This document shows positions 7,201 to 49,554 of a stretch of 64,000 nucleotides of DNA, one piece after another. Under the pieces are notes generated by a model that saw nothing but the letters and a program-made list of their open reading frames with translations, was not told the DNA's origin and did not search any database. The position numbers and the translations under genes were made by a program. Source of the stretch: Bryobacter sp. CoA8 C33 (GTDB taxonomy: Bacteria; Acidobacteriota; Terriglobia; Bryobacterales; Bryobacteraceae); contig JAINDK010000013.1 of NCBI GenBank assembly GCA_019931185.1, positions 1 through 64,000 on the forward strand, written 5' to 3'. Position 1 is the stretch's first letter, and every line of letters starts with the position of its first letter.

Positions 7201-7700
7201 CGGACGTTGCCGCCGACGAAGAGGGGGAGATCCATGAGCTTGGAGCGGTTGATGGTGGTGGCGAGGTCGGAGGTGGCTGTCTGCAGGGCGGGAATTTCGC
7301 CTGTCACTTCGACGGTCTGATCGACGGCGCCAACCTCGAGGCGGACATCGAGGTTGAGGGTTTGGGCGACGTTGAGCTCGATGCCCTTGCGGAGGGCTTT
7401 GCGGAAGCCCGAGGCCTCGACGGTGAGTTCATAGGAGCCGATGGGCAGTTGCGGGAGAACGTAGGTACCGGCTGAGGTGGTGGCGGTGCGGAATTCGAGG
7501 CGAGTGCCGGTGTTGGTGGCCTTGACGCTGGCGGCGACGATGGCGGCATCCGAGGGGTCGGTAACGCGGCCGGTGATAGTGCCGAGGGTGGTCTGGGCCA
7601 AGGACAATACGCAAGTGAAGGCGAAGCAAAAGGGCAGTTTATACAACTTGTATACTCCTGTAGTGAATAGACCGAGTTTACGAGAGAGGGGAATTAACAT
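4296..7700 (-). CDS. Oar-like TonB-dependent receptor with N-terminal carboxypeptidase-regulatory domain
   Basis: Outer-membrane beta-barrel receptor of 1134 residues, likely to import large carbohydrates or peptides using TonB energy. A signal peptide ends near SLAQ; residues about 40-125 form a CarboxypepD_reg-like Ig fold (GTITGRVTDPSDAAIVAASV, then GTYVLPQLPIGSYELTVEA). A plug domain follows (about 130-260) and the rest is barrel ending in the aromatic residue of LALRVEF, as needed for BAM insertion. Acidobacteria carry many such Oar/SusC-like receptors. The ATG at 7700 overlaps the stop of the DUF1080 gene in TGATG, arguing for translational coupling. A TTG at 7646 with AGGAG eight bases upstream gives a shorter and more typical signal peptide and is an equally possible start. 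Confidence 0.92.
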   Translation of the reverse strand: MLIPLSRKLGLFTTGVYKLYKLPFCFAFTCVLSLAQTTLGTITGRVTDPSDAAIVAASVKATNTGTRLEFRTATTSAGTYVLPQLPIGSYELTVEASGFRKALRKGIELNVAQTLNLDVRLEVGAVDQTVEVTGEIPALQTATSDLATTINRSKLMDLPLFVGGNVRNLEQFIFLAPGVTGDTGNTQISGSPSRAKEVLLDGVASTGIESGGVIAGNARPSVETIGEFKMVRANFNAEYGRTGGGVQIFTTKSGTNELHGSVFNYLRNDKLDARGFFQRTRQVNRQNEFGVTLGGPVVIPKLYNGKNKTFFHYVYGGYRFRQGSPNTLQSLIPVDFRQGDFARANPIYDPATNRTAGGANTRDQFPGNRIPASRFSSVARNILPLLPTPDNNSIFNNFLSIGRGQTNSNQHNVKIDHAFSDRNRVSGYYYNDLNEIRDAEIVPGPITPNRSTASRNNWVRLSHDLVLSPTKLNHITLGYTRTAVRIASYSLNQDWPNRLGLTGVNRGPDNTFPCIEFIASGFSRLGDQNCNSRVFQANNAFQLGESFSWTRGSHNLKFGLDYRWMETNGIDPWRTMGWFQFNALETGLPGAAASGNAIASFLLGNVNRGQLQVFSYFPRNRYQYWAGYAQDDWKISRKLTLNYGLRYDVFLPRYEARNNLSTFDLKLPNPAAGNLPGAMTFLGEGQGRSGLGRLADTDFKAFGPRLGLAYALNNKTVLRSGYGIYYAQGNANAGLRDSLQSSVGFVAQPVFLSQDAGFTPGFNWDGGFPQNFPQPPFISPSAGNGADVRMMLRSDGRAPYFQNWSFTLERELAQRINLEVTYLGTKGTRIGNGLVHWNELDPRFLSLGSLLTRPVTSPEAQAAGIRVPFPGFTGSVAQALRPFPHMQSVWNRSNPAGSSTYHALQTQLQVRSWHGLDVQMAYTWAKTISDSDILAGGGPAGQTTYNRRAEKAIATTDVPHVFALSYSYALPEFKNSGAARHLIGGWTFTGIHQYSVGTPITLSANNGLPLFTSVLRPNALGSDRAGTRGDFDPARDFWINRSAFAAPPALTFGSSARAYTDLRNPNFLNENFGLIKRLRLMDRVLVQFRAELFNAFNRTVFSAPQANVSNAQFGRIAGQQNTPRQGQLALRVEF

Positions 7701-8361
7701 CAGTTTACCTTAATGTTCTTGAAACAGGCGCGACCGCCGTGGTGGGTAAGCACGAGGGGGTAGGCGCGGCTGGGATTCTGGAGCAGTTCTTCGATGTGGT
7801 GGGGTTTGGAGATATCGGGCCGGGATTCGGCGGCGATGGCTTGGCGGAGTTTGTGGGAAGCGAGGTCGGTGGCGAGAACAAGTTTGCCGTCGATGTGGTG
7901 TTCGATTTTGGATCCAGCGACGCGAATGCGGACAGTATGCCACTGGCCGGGAGTGGGGCGGAGGGCGAGAGAAGGTGCGGCAAACAAATAGAGAGCGCCG
8001 GTGGCGCGGGTGGGAGAAACTTTTGCATCGCGGACGCGTTCATCGTCGAGCAGTTGGAGTTCGAGACCGAGGGCCTTGGGCACATCCGGGTCGTAGCGGC
8101 CGGTATCGGGGTTGGGGCGTGTACCGAAGACGAGATACTTGACTCCGGAGTTGGTACCGGGCGTGAGATACCAGTCAAAGGTGAGGTCGAAATTACGGAA
8201 GACGGCTTTGGTCGAGAGGTCAGCGCGGGGTCCATGGGGATGGTACAGCGGGTGGCGCCGCCCTCGATGGGCCAGGAAGCGGGAGAGATGCCGGGGCGGT
8301 TTTGGGTTTGCCAATCGTGGGGATTGAGCAATTGGGGGAGAAGAAGCAAGGGAGCAGCATG
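7700..8361 (-). pseudogene. DUF1080 (3-keto-disaccharide hydrolase-like) gene with two frameshifts, copy 1
   Basis: The longest open frame (7700-8314, 204 residues) carries most of a DUF1080 LamG-like fold: NFDLTFDWYLTPGTNSGVKY, KALGLELQLLDDE and GQWHTVRIRVAGSKIEHHIDG. The expected N-terminal part (SPASWPIEGGATR) is in another frame, and the natural start, ATG at 8361, is in a third. Lining up by hand with the related copy at 11190-11867 shows one missing base near the start and another around 8230. The gene is therefore broken, or the assembly has two indels. The family acts on sugars outside the cytoplasm. If translation starts inside, a shortened protein is possible. Its stop overlaps the TonB receptor start. 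Confidence 0.72.
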
Positions 8362-45469: not shown

Positions 45470-45808
45470 CTAGCAATAACCGAGCCGCGCTCCGATCTCA
45501 TTCAGTTGGGAATGCAGCAGGCGGAACTGGTCGCGAAATGAAGAAGTTTTCATGCCAAGCCGGACAACCGTGTCCACCTCGTTCAACACAGCCAATGTCA
45601 CTTCGTCGAGTTTTTTCAACGCTGGTTCCGGTCCAAGATCGGCTCGCGCAGCGGATAGATCTTCAATCAGGCGGTTGATTTCCGTGAGAGCTTGGCGGTC
45701 ACGCACACGCAACTCGAGAAGACGTATTATCTGATGGCTAGTTGCCAGATAATCTAACTCGAAATGCTTTCGTTGATTGCCCTCAGCTGGGCGGACATGG
45801 CGATCCAT
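45470..45808 (-). CDS. Small coiled-coil protein with one LExDYL repeat
   Basis: 112 residues with GAGGGGG five bases before ATG 45808. Residues about 17-55 (FELDYLATSHQIIRLLELR) match a repeat unit found twice in the next gene upstream; the rest is helical (EINRLIEDLSAARADLG, DQFRLLHSQLNEIGARLG). No known family or catalytic residue. Probably co-transcribed with its neighbour 28 bases upstream. Confidence 0.7.
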   Translation of the reverse strand: MDRHVRPAEGNQRKHFELDYLATSHQIIRLLELRVRDRQALTEINRLIEDLSAARADLGPEPALKKLDEVTLAVLNEVDTVVRLGMKTSSFRDQFRLLHSQLNEIGARLGYC

Positions 45809-45836
45809 GGCATCCCCCTCTGGCTACATCTCTTGG

Positions 45837-46247
45837 CTAACTTAGTGTGACGCTCAGTTCCTGAATCTCGCTCTGCAGCCGGGAAAGCCGATCGGTCATC
45901 GGCGGCTCGGTGGCAAACACTGGAGCAGCAGACCAACTGAGCTGGACGGCCAGTTCTTCCATTTGCTGCTGTAGTTGCTGGAATTCCAACGCCATGGCGT
46001 AAACCTTGGATTTCTGACGCAATAGTTCCTGGACTTTGCTCGCCGCGCTAAGATACCTTTCTTCCAGTTCACGCGGATCGGACGATTCCAGGATCTCTTT
46101 CGCCAACTTCACCATTTTCCCGTGAGTTTGCGCAATTTCCCCTTCTACGCTGTAGACAGCTTTCTTTCTCTGCAACAAGTCCTCAATCTGGCAGGCAAGG
46201 CTCAGATAATCGTGTTCCAGATCGCGCAGACTTCTCTTGGTTGACAT
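45837..46247 (-). CDS. Small coiled-coil protein with two LExxYL repeats
   Basis: 136 residues, entirely helical. Two copies of a 40-residue unit can be lined up: LEHDYLSLACQIEDLLQRKK (residues 10-29) and LEERYLSAASKVQELLRQKS (about 61-80), each followed by a helix ending near MxxLA. The C-terminus (RLSRLQSEIQELSVTLS) is a further heptad stretch. Purine-rich AGGAAGGGG precedes the start. Unknown function; likely a structural or adaptor protein with the gene downstream. Confidence 0.7.
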   Translation of the reverse strand: MSTKRSLRDLEHDYLSLACQIEDLLQRKKAVYSVEGEIAQTHGKMVKLAKEILESSDPRELEERYLSAASKVQELLRQKSKVYAMALEFQQLQQQMEELAVQLSWSAAPVFATEPPMTDRLSRLQSEIQELSVTLS

Positions 46248-46307: not shown

Positions 46308-47123
46308 CTATTTGCCGCCGGTGATTTCCAGTAGCTCAATTTCGAAAATCAATGCTGCTCCGCCCGGTATCGAAGGCCGCCCAGAATCCCCATAAGCCAG
46401 ATCCGCCGGACACACCAGCCGGGACTTCCCCCCCACCTTCATCCGCTGCACACCCTCCGTCCAGCAAGGAATCACATTCCCCAATGGAAATTGCGCCGGC
46501 TCGTTGCGCTTGTAGGAACTGTCGAACTCCGTGCCGTCCACCAACGTTCCGCGATAGTGCACCTTCACCGTGTCGCTCGCCTTGGGATTAGCTCCGCTAC
46601 CCGCTGCCAGTTCCCGATACAACAGCCCGGATTCGGTCTTGAGCACCCCTAGCTCTCCGCCAGCCTTGGCGATAAAATCTATCGAACGCTGCTTCTCTTT
46701 TTCCGCTTGACGGCTTTGACGAGCCTGCACCAGCCCCTGCAACTTAGGACCCCATTCGCTCAAGGGTACTGCCGGTTGATTGGCCGCTGCATCCTGAATC
46801 GCCTGCTGCACCACGGCCAGTTCCTCGGAGCTCAAGTCAAACTGGCCAAGCGAGCGGTGAATCGACAACCCAATGGCATAGATCGTCTTTAGCTCGTCCG
46901 TCTGCGGGACCGCCGTCGAAGCAGGCTTCGTCGCTGCAGCCGGCCGAACCGCCGTCACCGGGCGTGCCGTCACCGGGCGCACGGTGCCGCCCTGCTTGAG
47001 CGCCGGCGCTGTCTTCGAAGCTGGCTTTGCCGTCGCCGCGACCGCCGTCTTCGGGCTGCTCGCTACCTTCGGGGCCGGAGCCTGCGCGAACATCAGCGCC
47101 ATGGACAGGAAAAGGAAACTCAT
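46308..47123 (-). CDS. FKBP-type peptidyl-prolyl cis-trans isomerase, exported
   Basis: 271 residues that should help proteins fold in the periplasm. After a signal peptide (MSFLFLSMALMFAQA) comes an Ala/Pro/Lys-rich linker (to about residue 70), a helical FKBP_N domain (IYAIGLSIHRSLGQFDLSSE) and the FKBP domain from about 175 on: VKVHYRGTLVDGTEFDSSYK, GVQRMKVGGKSRLVCPADLAYG, IPGGAALIFEIELLEI. The active-site Tyr, Phe-Asp and the YG...IP region are kept, so it is probably active. Confidence 0.93.
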   Translation of the reverse strand: MSFLFLSMALMFAQAPAPKVASSPKTAVAATAKPASKTAPALKQGGTVRPVTARPVTAVRPAAATKPASTAVPQTDELKTIYAIGLSIHRSLGQFDLSSEELAVVQQAIQDAAANQPAVPLSEWGPKLQGLVQARQSRQAEKEKQRSIDFIAKAGGELGVLKTESGLLYRELAAGSGANPKASDTVKVHYRGTLVDGTEFDSSYKRNEPAQFPLGNVIPCWTEGVQRMKVGGKSRLVCPADLAYGDSGRPSIPGGAALIFEIELLEITGGK

Positions 47124-47474: not shown

Positions 47475-47939
47475 ATGAAAAACCAAGATGATCCGCGGCA
47501 AAACCTGCCGTCGCCCGAAGTGGAAACCCGCAAGCGCCACCGCTTTCGCTCCATTGCTCCGATCCACGTGAACGATCTCGAAGACCCGCGCGGCCATGCC
47601 GAAATGCTCGATCGCCTCTTTGCGGAAATCCCCCCGTCTAACATTCTCGAGGAGGGAGATCTCGTCTCGGCCGGACAGCTCCGCTGGAGCACCGAGCGTC
47701 TTCACAATCTCGCCGAGTGCGAACTCAATCAACAAATCCGCCTCCCGCTGCTGTCCCGCGCCAGCGATTCCAGGAACCGCCTCATGCTCGGCCACCGCCT
47801 GTGCGCCATCGAAAAGCACTACCTCGTATTGCACAAACACCGCTTCGACCACCTCAAGATGCTCAACACGCTCTCGGCACGCGTCGAAAAGTGGTCCGCC
47901 CCCAAGCCGGTTCGCGCCCGGCGGGAAAAGGAAATCTGA
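47475..47939 (+). CDS. Unknown helical protein, first gene of the terminase cassette
   Basis: 154 residues from ATG 47475. Basic N-terminus (ETRKRHRFRSI), then helices with STERLHNLAECELNQQIRLP and LCAIEKHYLVLHKHRFDHLK. The composition and position, just before a terminase, would fit a small-subunit or DNA-binding helper, but no helix-turn-helix is obvious and I do not recognise the family. The next gene starts five bases after its stop. Confidence 0.68.
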   Translation: MKNQDDPRQNLPSPEVETRKRHRFRSIAPIHVNDLEDPRGHAEMLDRLFAEIPPSNILEEGDLVSAGQLRWSTERLHNLAECELNQQIRLPLLSRASDSRNRLMLGHRLCAIEKHYLVLHKHRFDHLKMLNTLSARVEKWSAPKPVRARREKEI

Positions 47940-47944
47940 TCACC

Positions 47945-48169
47945 ATGGCCCGTCGCAAATCGCCCGCTCCGCGCCTGTACGCCTTGCTCCCCTCACCCGC
48001 GCTGCCAGCGCCCCCGGAACAGCTCGTTGAATCGGGCTCCGTCCGCCTCGGCCACTTGCTCGAAGTCATCGCCGGGGCCCTCGAACCCTACCCCGAGGCC
48101 CGTCAGGCCCTCACCACCGCCATCCGCGACAGGCTCGGCGCGCAGCCGGAAACCCGGGTTCTCGCCTGA
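47945..48169 (+). CDS. Small unknown protein of the terminase cassette
   Basis: 74 residues from ATG 47945 (MARRKSPAPRLYALLPSPAL), with a basic, Pro-rich start and a helical end (VRLGHLLEVIAGALEPYPEA). The stop overlaps the terminase ATPase start in TGATG, so translation is coupled. The frame is open far upstream but that part lies over the previous gene. Function unknown. Confidence 0.62.
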   Translation: MARRKSPAPRLYALLPSPALPAPPEQLVESGSVRLGHLLEVIAGALEPYPEARQALTTAIRDRLGAQPETRVLA

Positions 48170-48930
48170 TGGATGCCGCCCACGCCCTCCGCATGGTCGC
48201 CAGCCGCCTTGACCCCGTCGCCTTCGCGCATTACTTCCTCGGCATCGAAGCCGACGCGCAACAGGCGCTGGTCCTGCGCTCGCGCGCCCCCCAACTCATC
48301 CTCAATTGCTCGCGCCAATGGGGCAAGTCCACCGTCTCAAGCATACTCGCCCTCCACAAGGCCTTCTTTGAGCCGCGCAGCCTCGTCCTCGTCGTCAGCC
48401 CAACTCTCCGGCAAAGCGGCGAGTTGATTCGGAAAATTATTGCCCACCTCCCCACCCTCGGCCTCCGCAAGCGCGGGGATGGCGTCAATTCTCTCTCGAT
48501 TGAGTTGCCCAATGGCTCCCGCATCGTCGGCCTGCCCGGTCGCGACGGCACCATCCGCGGCTTCTCCGGCACCAGCCTGCTGCTCATCGATGAAGCCAGC
48601 CAGGTCGCCGACAGCCTTTACCGCAGCGTCCGCCCCTTTCTGGCCGCCTCCCGCGATGGCCGCCTCGTTCTCATGTCGACCCCCTTCGGCACCCGCGGCT
48701 TCTTCTGGGAGGAGTGGGAACGCGGCGAAGGCTGGCAACGCATCGAAACTCCCGCCACCGCCTGCCCCCGCTTCCGCCCCGAATTCCTCGAGCGCGAGCG
48801 CAAGTCGATGGGAGAATCCTGGTTCCGTCAGGAATACCTTTGCCAGTTCCTTGAAAACCAGAACACCTTTCTGCCCCGCGCCTGGGTCGAGGAGGCTTTC
48901 ACGGCCGACATCGAGGCCTTCCCTTTCTAA
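48169..48930 (+). CDS. Terminase large-subunit ATPase domain as a separate protein
   Basis: 253 residues equal to the N-terminal motor half of a phage large terminase. Walker A is SRQWGKST (residues 48-55), Walker B LLLIDEAS (D141, E142), and the coupling motif is LMSTPFGTRG (169 onward). VVSPTLRQSGELIRKI gives the usual second strand. Length stops exactly at the end of the ATPase region (FRQEYLCQFLENQNTF, then AWVEEAF), so this is not a random truncation. The nuclease half is the next gene, nine bases on, with its own ribosome site. In phages both halves are one protein that packages DNA into capsids. Confidence 0.85.
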   Translation: MDAAHALRMVASRLDPVAFAHYFLGIEADAQQALVLRSRAPQLILNCSRQWGKSTVSSILALHKAFFEPRSLVLVVSPTLRQSGELIRKIIAHLPTLGLRKRGDGVNSLSIELPNGSRIVGLPGRDGTIRGFSGTSLLLIDEASQVADSLYRSVRPFLAASRDGRLVLMSTPFGTRGFFWEEWERGEGWQRIETPATACPRFRPEFLERERKSMGESWFRQEYLCQFLENQNTFLPRAWVEEAFTADIEAFPF

Positions 48931-48939
48931 GGAGCAATC

Positions 48940-49554
48940 ATGAACCGGTCTCTTGAAAAAAATGAATACTTCCTCGGCCTCGACCTCGGCCGCAAACAGG
49001 ACCACTCCGCCCTCATCGTCCTCGAGCGCAGCCTCAAGGCCATCAACACCCGCTATGTCGACGCCTACACTCAGTGGGAAACCCTGCTCAGCGTCCGCTA
49101 CGCCCGCCGCTGGAAACTCGGCACCGCCTATGGCGCCGTCGCCGCCGCCGTCGGCGAGGTCTACCGTAAAGTCGAGGCCCTCGGCCGCCCGGTCCTCGTC
49201 TTTGACCAAACCGGCGTCGGCGATGCCGTCTATGAAATGATCCGCGAAAACCTCCGCGGCACCAATGTCGAAGGCGTCGTTCTCACCCATGAACTCAAGC
49301 GCGACATGTACTCCGCCCTTGAAACCAACCTCGAGCAAGGCAAACTCCGCATCGCCGAAAATTGCCACTCCAGCCGCGAACTCAAACAGGAACTCCTCAG
49401 CGTCGAGATCCGCCGCGTCGGCTTCGGCTACAAATATGGCGCCTTCGACAAAGGCGCCCATGACGACCTCGTCATGGCCCTCGCCCTCGCCTGCTGGCGC
49501 GAACGCCTCGGACAGCGTCCCACTGCTTCGCTCGAACGCATCCCCGGCTTCTGA
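48940..49554 (+). CDS. Terminase-type RNase H-fold nuclease as a separate protein
   Basis: 204 residues matching the C-terminal nuclease half of large terminases. All expected metal ligands are visible: Asp15 in FLGLDLGRKQDHSAL, Asp89 in VLVFDQTGVGDAVYEM, and His-Asp-Asp (174-176) in KGAHDDLVMALALACW. A clear AAGGAG precedes ATG 48940, showing it is translated on its own. With the ATPase gene upstream it could rebuild a two-chain terminase. No portal, capsid, protease or integrase gene is nearby, so a domesticated role or a non-phage mobile element is possible. Convergent with the sulfatase, stop to stop. Confidence 0.85.
   Translation: MNRSLEKNEYFLGLDLGRKQDHSALIVLERSLKAINTRYVDAYTQWETLLSVRYARRWKLGTAYGAVAAAVGEVYRKVEALGRPVLVFDQTGVGDAVYEMIRENLRGTNVEGVVLTHELKRDMYSALETNLEQGKLRIAENCHSSRELKQELLSVEIRRVGFGYKYGAFDKGAHDDLVMALALACWRERLGQRPTASLERIPGF

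Follow-up and report, generated by a model that had tools for sequence, protein, structure and literature searches.

A split terminase cassette of Bryobacter belongs to a dispersed Bryobacteraceae family without adjoining virion genes

Introduction

Tailed viruses use a terminase to pump and cut DNA. To our knowledge, terminases are considered to be confined to tailed phages and herpesviruses. According to the accessible passages of a 2019 survey, terminase had not been identified in non-viral mobile elements (PMC6563490). As far as their available text goes, one acidobacterial genome paper treats terminase genes as prophage markers (PMC5900883) and another describes scattered phage-related genes without intact prophages (PMC3174227). 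What, then, does a terminase do in a bacterial genome when no virion gene adjoins it? The question is raised by a stretch of 64,000 nucleotides, hereafter the window, from Bryobacter sp. CoA8 C33 (GCA_019931185.1, contig JAINDK010000013.1, positions 1 to 64,000, forward strand). A sequence-only reading had noticed in it an isolated cassette encoding an intact, split terminase preceded by two small unknown genes, and had considered a domesticated DNA-translocating nuclease, a defence or competence device, a gene-transfer-agent outpost or a part of a small mobile element among its possible identities.

Results

Motor and nuclease are encoded by separate genes

The cassette (47475-49554) consists of four tightly packed genes on the forward strand: gene A (47475..47939, 154 aa), gene B (47945..48169, 74 aa), the ATPase or motor of a large terminase subunit (TerL) as a gene of its own (48169..48930, 253 aa), whose ATG overlaps the TGA of gene B, and a separate TerL nuclease of RNase H fold (48940..49554, 204 aa). 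The ribosome-binding site AAGGAG that had been attributed to the nuclease gene is indeed present on the same strand (48929..48934), where it overlaps the ATPase stop codon and sits five bases ahead of the nuclease ATG.

The ATPase belongs to Terminase_6N (E 3e-8) and the nuclease to Terminase_6C (E 2.8e-5), both above the curated Pfam cut-offs. In PHROG, the ATPase matches phrog_7579 'terminase large subunit' (E 6e-49), and the nuclease matches phrog_27743, which carries no function (E 3e-24), as well as phrog_5909 'terminase large subunit' (E 8e-9). Three motifs can be read on the forward strand of the ATPase gene, NCSRQWGKST (residues 46-55, 48304..48333), LLLIDEA (48577..48597) and STP (48676..48684), which we take to be Walker A, Walker B and the coupling motif, respectively. 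The nuclease carries the metal ligands D15, D89 and D176. For its predicted structure (pLDDT 89.5), the PDB entry that fits best is a terminase nuclease, and all 15 matches at E <= 0.001 are terminase entries, headed by that of phage G20c (5m1p).

The neighbours of the cassette are an FKBP-type isomerase (46308-47123), a sulfatase and an RNase R-like gene. No portal or capsid gene was found near it when the proteins of two related phages were compared with the loci, and no full prophage holds the cassette. Its supposed isolation stands as far as phage genes beside it are concerned, but not at the genome scale, since two further ATPase copies are found on contigs C3 and C135, making three motor copies in total. 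Two small helical-looking genes lie beside the FKBP gene in the window (45470-46247); relatives of these genes are found beside FKBP in another species (G001, L220).

Gene B is a small terminase tail and gene A probably a relative of a helical family

The gene that precedes TerL in the Thermus and Meiothermus phages has a helix-turn-helix (HTH)-like start and ends with a tail such as EWARLKALVLEALAPYPEARAALVERL. A model built from two phage small terminase (TerS) tails alone and run against 896 upstream peptides finds gene B (E 6e-4 in the window; 3e-6, 0.0044 and 0.0045 in three orthologs), and hhalign pairs gene B with the TerS tail at probability 96 (E 7e-9). Judging from these profile comparisons, gene B is the C-terminal tail of a TerS, and what the window copy has of a TerS is this tail alone, the N-terminal HTH part being absent. 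After iteration, the tail is found in 11 of 109 non-redundant loci (eight duplicates having been dropped). Full-length TerS matches occur in two of these 109 (L064 and L104) and partial ones in eight more, among them L057.

Gene A has no family match in Pfam, PHROG, NCBIfam or PADLOC. However, it weakly resembles an unnamed helical family, for which we coined the name KHGL and whose members combine a basic motif of the RANGAKSRGPxTPEGKxRSSxNALxHGL kind with a helical body. A KHGL model built without gene A retrieves it at E 0.034 in the window and at 0.0022-0.12 in the orthologs, and hhalign gives E 9e-5 with probability 60. Gene A is probably related to KHGL through the C-terminal helical part of the latter and lacks the basic N-terminal motif. 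Hence, the two small genes exist in the tight operon as described, but they are no longer both without relatives.

Six KHGL members have no significant match in Pfam or PHROG, four have none above the NCBIfam cut-offs and three have none in PADLOC; the family has no match in the phage collection and four among plasmids. It is found in 34 of 61 genomes, with at least 40 matches in the richest (our alignment A2 leaves out two KHGL rows). Of the 90 loci whose upstream DNA is long enough, 42 have a KHGL-type gene at most 1.7 kb upstream of the motor, on the same strand in 25 and divergent in 17; this count includes the window and its three orthologs and was made with a model that had absorbed gene A. 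Without them, adjacency is seen in 38 of 86 loci, against a chance expectation that we estimate at roughly 1% (about 30-40 copies per 7 Mb). The predicted KHGL fold is all-helical and confident (pLDDT 90); the model has no PDB or BFVD match at E <= 0.001, so that no function follows from the fold. In L092 (9896-11245), a KHGL protein leads, within a single open frame, into the motor before a stop; this damaged copy is a possible natural fusion of the two partners. A small Picosynechococcus plasmid (L263, 5672-6640) carries a KHGL relative beside methyltransferase, restriction and toxin-antitoxin genes.

The window copy is retained at one place under purifying selection

Three other species (G003, G004 and G006) carry the four genes intact at the position of the window copy, which makes four species in all. 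The sulfatase and RNase R genes are its neighbours there too, some 4 kb more distant in G006. The FKBP neighbour is not common to G003 or G006, where it sits on other contigs. The motor proteins of the three orthologs are 76-80% identical to that of the window, and all three terminases are split. The four-gene order is not kept everywhere, however. In a fifth species (G001), the copy at this place (contig C45, L214 at 7336-7824) has an internal deletion: gene A is kept and gene B is joined in frame to the end of the nuclease, the motor therefore being deleted. In G002, G005 and G007, contigs end before the locus can be read.

Among the window orthologs, dN/dS is 0.02-0.23 for the ATPase, 0.06-0.25 for the nuclease and 0.09-0.26 for the neighbouring RNase R, with dS near saturation in several pairs. 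It reaches 0.20-0.41 for gene A and 0.13-0.77 for gene B (one pair saturated for each), which thus change faster than motor and nuclease. These ratios indicate that the motor and nuclease of the window are under purifying selection like RNase R. Ordinary prophage decay was rejected on motif conservation and dN/dS. We confirm that motor and nuclease are intact, that the terminase is split without phage genes around it and that this state is not decay, as the sequence-only reading had held.

The cassette is one member of a dispersed family

The window copy is one old member of a dispersed, multi-copy Bryobacteraceae family that is sparser in other Acidobacteriota. A motor search at E <= 0.001 matched 36 of 101 relatives, own genome included, with up to ten matches per genome. 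Ten of these 36 genomes lie outside the family and match weakly (E 4e-4 to 8e-10), in open frames of 475-720 aa that look like ordinary fused TerLs. Scanning named genomes yielded 54 loci, every one in an Acidobacteriota assembly, most of these assemblies carrying Bryobacterales or Solibacter in their titles; as the scan relies on peptides of the window protein, it favours close relatives. In an even sample of 396 Acidobacteriota genomes, six others match at E <= 1e-25, all from families of other classes.

The 109 loci comprise 66 split cassettes (motor then nuclease), 12 fused in one open frame, two with the nuclease first and 29 incomplete ones, some of them cut by contig ends. The incomplete loci include 15 with an intact motor but no intact nuclease, three in which only the nuclease is intact and 11 with neither. 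Since 29 of 109 loci are incomplete and the motor is deleted in G001, the cassette is dispensable. The split is constant among the close orthologs, no rejoined gene being found there, but the 12 fused loci indicate that it is not universal in the wider family. On the motor tree, the fused state has to change six times, and at least four of these changes fall on well-supported branches; fusion or fission has therefore occurred more than once.

Catalytic residues are nearly invariant across the family. In 83 full-length nucleases, window included, the columns of D15, D89 and D176 hold an aspartate in 81, 83 and 81 cases. In 95 full-length ATPases, the Walker A lysine is kept in 94, the Walker B aspartate and glutamate in 92 and 95, and the S, T and P of the coupling motif in 95, 93 and 92, respectively. 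The 74/74 ligand figure of alignment A3 was not taken as a count, since this alignment omits nine of the 83 nucleases (L057, L090, L097, L099, L100, L137, L146, L149 and L151), among them that of L057, which lacks the third ligand region.

Several loci have repeats nearby. Short tandem repeats lie exactly between the motor and nuclease genes in L051, L056, L061 and L116. Tandem repeats were rejected as a general companion of the cassette, as they make up 1.1% of bases near it and 1.3% far from it over all loci. In L058, an array situated about 0.8-2.2 kb upstream of the motor has a repeat unit that is presumably CRISPR-like, of type I-C.

Outside the family, 11 loci from other Acidobacteriota families (L249-L259) carry one to four nuclease genes, nine of them having two to four. 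Fifteen of their 24 nucleases keep D-D-D and nine have lost at least one ligand in open frames (one by a mere D to E change), each locus keeping at least one nuclease with all three ligands. TerS or its tail is found in seven of the 11 and KHGL in none. The tandem nucleases suggest that unlike subunits form a complex, a state that would explain why a split is kept. In a first tree, two phage TerLs joined the window clade (99/81), and a second tree placed them otherwise. When plasmids and other Acidobacteriota are included, the phage TerLs leave the window clade, and phages, plasmids and non-family Acidobacteriota form one group (98/99) in this tree, whose root is not fixed.

Other copies have moved between contexts

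Other copies are 80-95% identical in unrelated contexts. Among 27 locus pairs at least 80% identical in motor DNA, 18 show no flank match, nine of these with both flanks testable; a script had flagged 20 pairs, from which L114/L154 (match running to -3115) and L157/L158 were removed as doubtful. Two of the nine pairs come from a same genome (L136/L137 at 93% and L096/L098 at 86%). In one genome, the KHGL gene and the cassette of L056 and L061 match as a single unit of about 2.7 kb with unrelated flanks. The two also apparently form one unit in L138/L139 and L134/L156, where the right side reaches contig ends.

L067 (G007) and L069 (G005) are 90% identical over the unit, with a dS of 0.20-0.24 compared with 0.85 for RNase R in the same two genomes. 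The L067 copy is embedded in an array of 25-base repeats and has a palindromic repeat (REP) next to it. Its right flank, the array and the palindrome are present without the cassette in G005, the left flank not being in common, and the right flank is present without array or palindrome in G003. This empty site (L067 versus L228 and L244) is partial and is the one case found; none was found for the window copy. No terminal inverted repeats above shuffles were detected in 12 loci (smallest fraction 0.023) and no target duplication was seen at cassette copies. The unit ends coincide with gene ends, as in ordinary recombination of selected genes. The part of a small mobile element that had been proposed for the cassette therefore suits the family, given its movement and partial empty site, better than the window copy, which keeps one place in four species.

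The palindrome, CCCCACGCTTACGCATGGGG, is dispersed in G003, G005 and G007, for instance in L074 at 9460 and L067 at 1492, with 21 hits in G003; the 25-base repeat has 22 hits. In G003, three of the four cassettes have one of the 21 palindromes within about 1.2 kb, and two palindromes lie beside KHGL genes. In L179, a gene lies between two palindromes and is presumably a RAYT-type transposase.

Virion and defence genes near the cassettes

When 26 proteins of two related phages were compared with the 109 loci, TerL and TerS alone matched, except for a weak gp36-like hit in L101 (E 8e-5). Pfam Phage_portal was not found in the own genome and was found in one of the 22 cassette genomes searched (G048, contigs C15, C56 and C157, none with a cassette), G028, G038, G051 and G057 being matching family genomes outside these 22. 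Four of 14 control genomes were positive. Searches of the cassette genomes with Portal_Mu and the Riverbug portal, run with no positive control, were empty.

The four window proteins and three KHGL proteins have no PADLOC match at E <= 1. Defence neighbours were compared between genes near the cassette (120 of 313) and, in the same loci, genes far from it (120 of 230). Among the top 25 families, near genes include AbiEii, HicB, DUF433, Macro and a BREX gene, and far genes include Cas and BrxL genes. Defence-island enrichment was rejected, as no clear excess over the far control appeared among these families.

Discussion

Gene identities, intact active sites, long selected retention, the spread of relatives and the lack of adjoining virion genes are directly supported. 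The cassette is probably a stand-alone machine with no virion of its own. Our preferred explanation, held tentatively and at somewhat less than an even chance, is a domesticated, virion-free terminase module, a DNA-translocating nuclease that belongs to a dispersed family outside the phage life cycle and perhaps acts in defence. The defensive use taken by itself is a possibility of slightly lower standing. Equally tentative, and lowest of these three, is its fuller version: a terminase serving the cell or a non-viral element, in which motor and nuclease are separate and exchangeable, some lineages pair one motor with several nucleases, a few of them catalytically dead, KHGL replaces the DNA-binding part of TerS and the complex most likely attacks foreign DNA or blocks phage packaging. 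We thus read the cassette as a terminase holoenzyme without virion that has spread and is kept by selection.

The module would combine four parts: B as a TerS tail, A as a helical partner, and a motor and a nuclease that form distinct subunits. Gene B may dock the motor and A or KHGL may guide or nucleate the complex on DNA; the motor would use ATP to translocate double-stranded DNA, which the nuclease, made as a protein of its own, would cut. The likeliest use would be acting on foreign DNA or phage packaging, either by cutting DNA or by competing for the portal of an incoming phage. Such a role fits the many divergent copies, their turnover and the fast-changing A and B genes. However, the lack of PADLOC matches and of a clear defence excess over the control speaks against it, and so do the tape-measure-like proteins found on plasmids with the same split pair, which point to phage or satellite biology.

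These plasmids bear mainly on the next most likely explanation after action on foreign DNA or phage packaging, namely a packaging module of a phage satellite or plasmid, whose own TerS and TerL would pack element DNA into the empty heads of a helper, chromosomal copies being reduced or stranded. We consider it unlikely, albeit the strongest competitor. The split pair is carried by Salinibacter ruber plasmids pSR11 (11.2 kb), pSR14 (14.9 kb) and pSR31 (31.6 kb, with two nucleases 64% identical), along with ParA on all three, a P4-family primase on pSR11 and a tape-measure-like protein on pSR11 and pSR14. The TerS tail is present on pSR14 (LLDALQEYPEARQAVADAL) and pSR31, no portal or capsid match occurs among ten proteins scanned from the three plasmids, and cassette copies do move between contexts. 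Conversely, TerS was not detected on pSR11, the chromosomal unit has no integrase, replication or capsid gene, the window copy has no TerS HTH part, full-length TerS is as rare as reported above and the window copy stays at one place in four species. The movement of copies could also reflect a self-moving element using motor and nuclease as transposition machinery, as the multi-copy, dispersed family, the L056/L061 unit, the pairs with unmatched flanks and the partial empty site of L067 would allow. The absence of inverted repeats and target duplications, the unit ends at gene ends and an empty site that shares the right flank, array and REP but not the left flank make this quite improbable.

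The nearest annotated relatives are TerLs of Thermus and Meiothermus phages and gene B is a phage TerS tail, so that the cassettes could be remnants of ordinary prophages. We regard this as very unlikely, given intact active sites, purifying selection, up to ten matches per genome, a cassette order repeated at many places and no virion gene beside 109 loci apart from one weak hit. Known gene transfer agents can have scattered genes, which would allow the cassette to be an outlying part of such an agent with its capsid genes elsewhere. This origin was rejected as extremely improbable on a test that rests on the portal: the own genome lacks Phage_portal, as do 21 of the 22 cassette genomes searched, with a positive control.

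The terminase machine thus seems to live outside viruses, related copies being scattered through the genomes of relatives. If this is true, the DNA-packaging motor is reusable, as a selected, dispersed, virion-free family would indicate, and it would be the first machine to use a terminase for anything but virus assembly. In openly accessible abstracts and passages of the literature, preprints excluded, we found no prior report of such a family. Moreover, separate subunits allow motor and nuclease, which are hard to part in phages, to be tested singly.

Comparison with known systems delimits what is particular to the cassette. In Thermus phage Riverbug and Meiothermus phages MMP17/MMP7, the TerL is 50% and 42% identical in the motor and 35-36% in the nuclease, and a TerS gene with the same C-terminal tail lies directly upstream. 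In the phages, however, a single polypeptide forms TerL, and portal, head and tail genes come after it, whereas the window encodes motor and nuclease in two genes with no virion genes behind them. Likewise, the G20c nuclease, whose fold comes closest to that of the window nuclease (E 2e-7, TM 0.64/0.70), is the C-terminal domain of a single phage TerL chain. For Salinibacter, the accessible text of a paper on its genomes notes a terminase on pSR31 and similar small plasmids (PMC6060240). The three plasmids share separate motor and nuclease genes in the same order, but they are small plasmids with ParA and other genes, and no KHGL-type gene was found among the proteins tested. Finally, the thaumarchaeal NitKor-E1, as described in the available passages of PMC6563490, also has TerS and TerL without other phage genes, its terminase being called there a likely relic. 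NitKor-E1 is a single element with a tyrosine integrase, whereas the family described here has many copies, split subunits under selection and no integrase.
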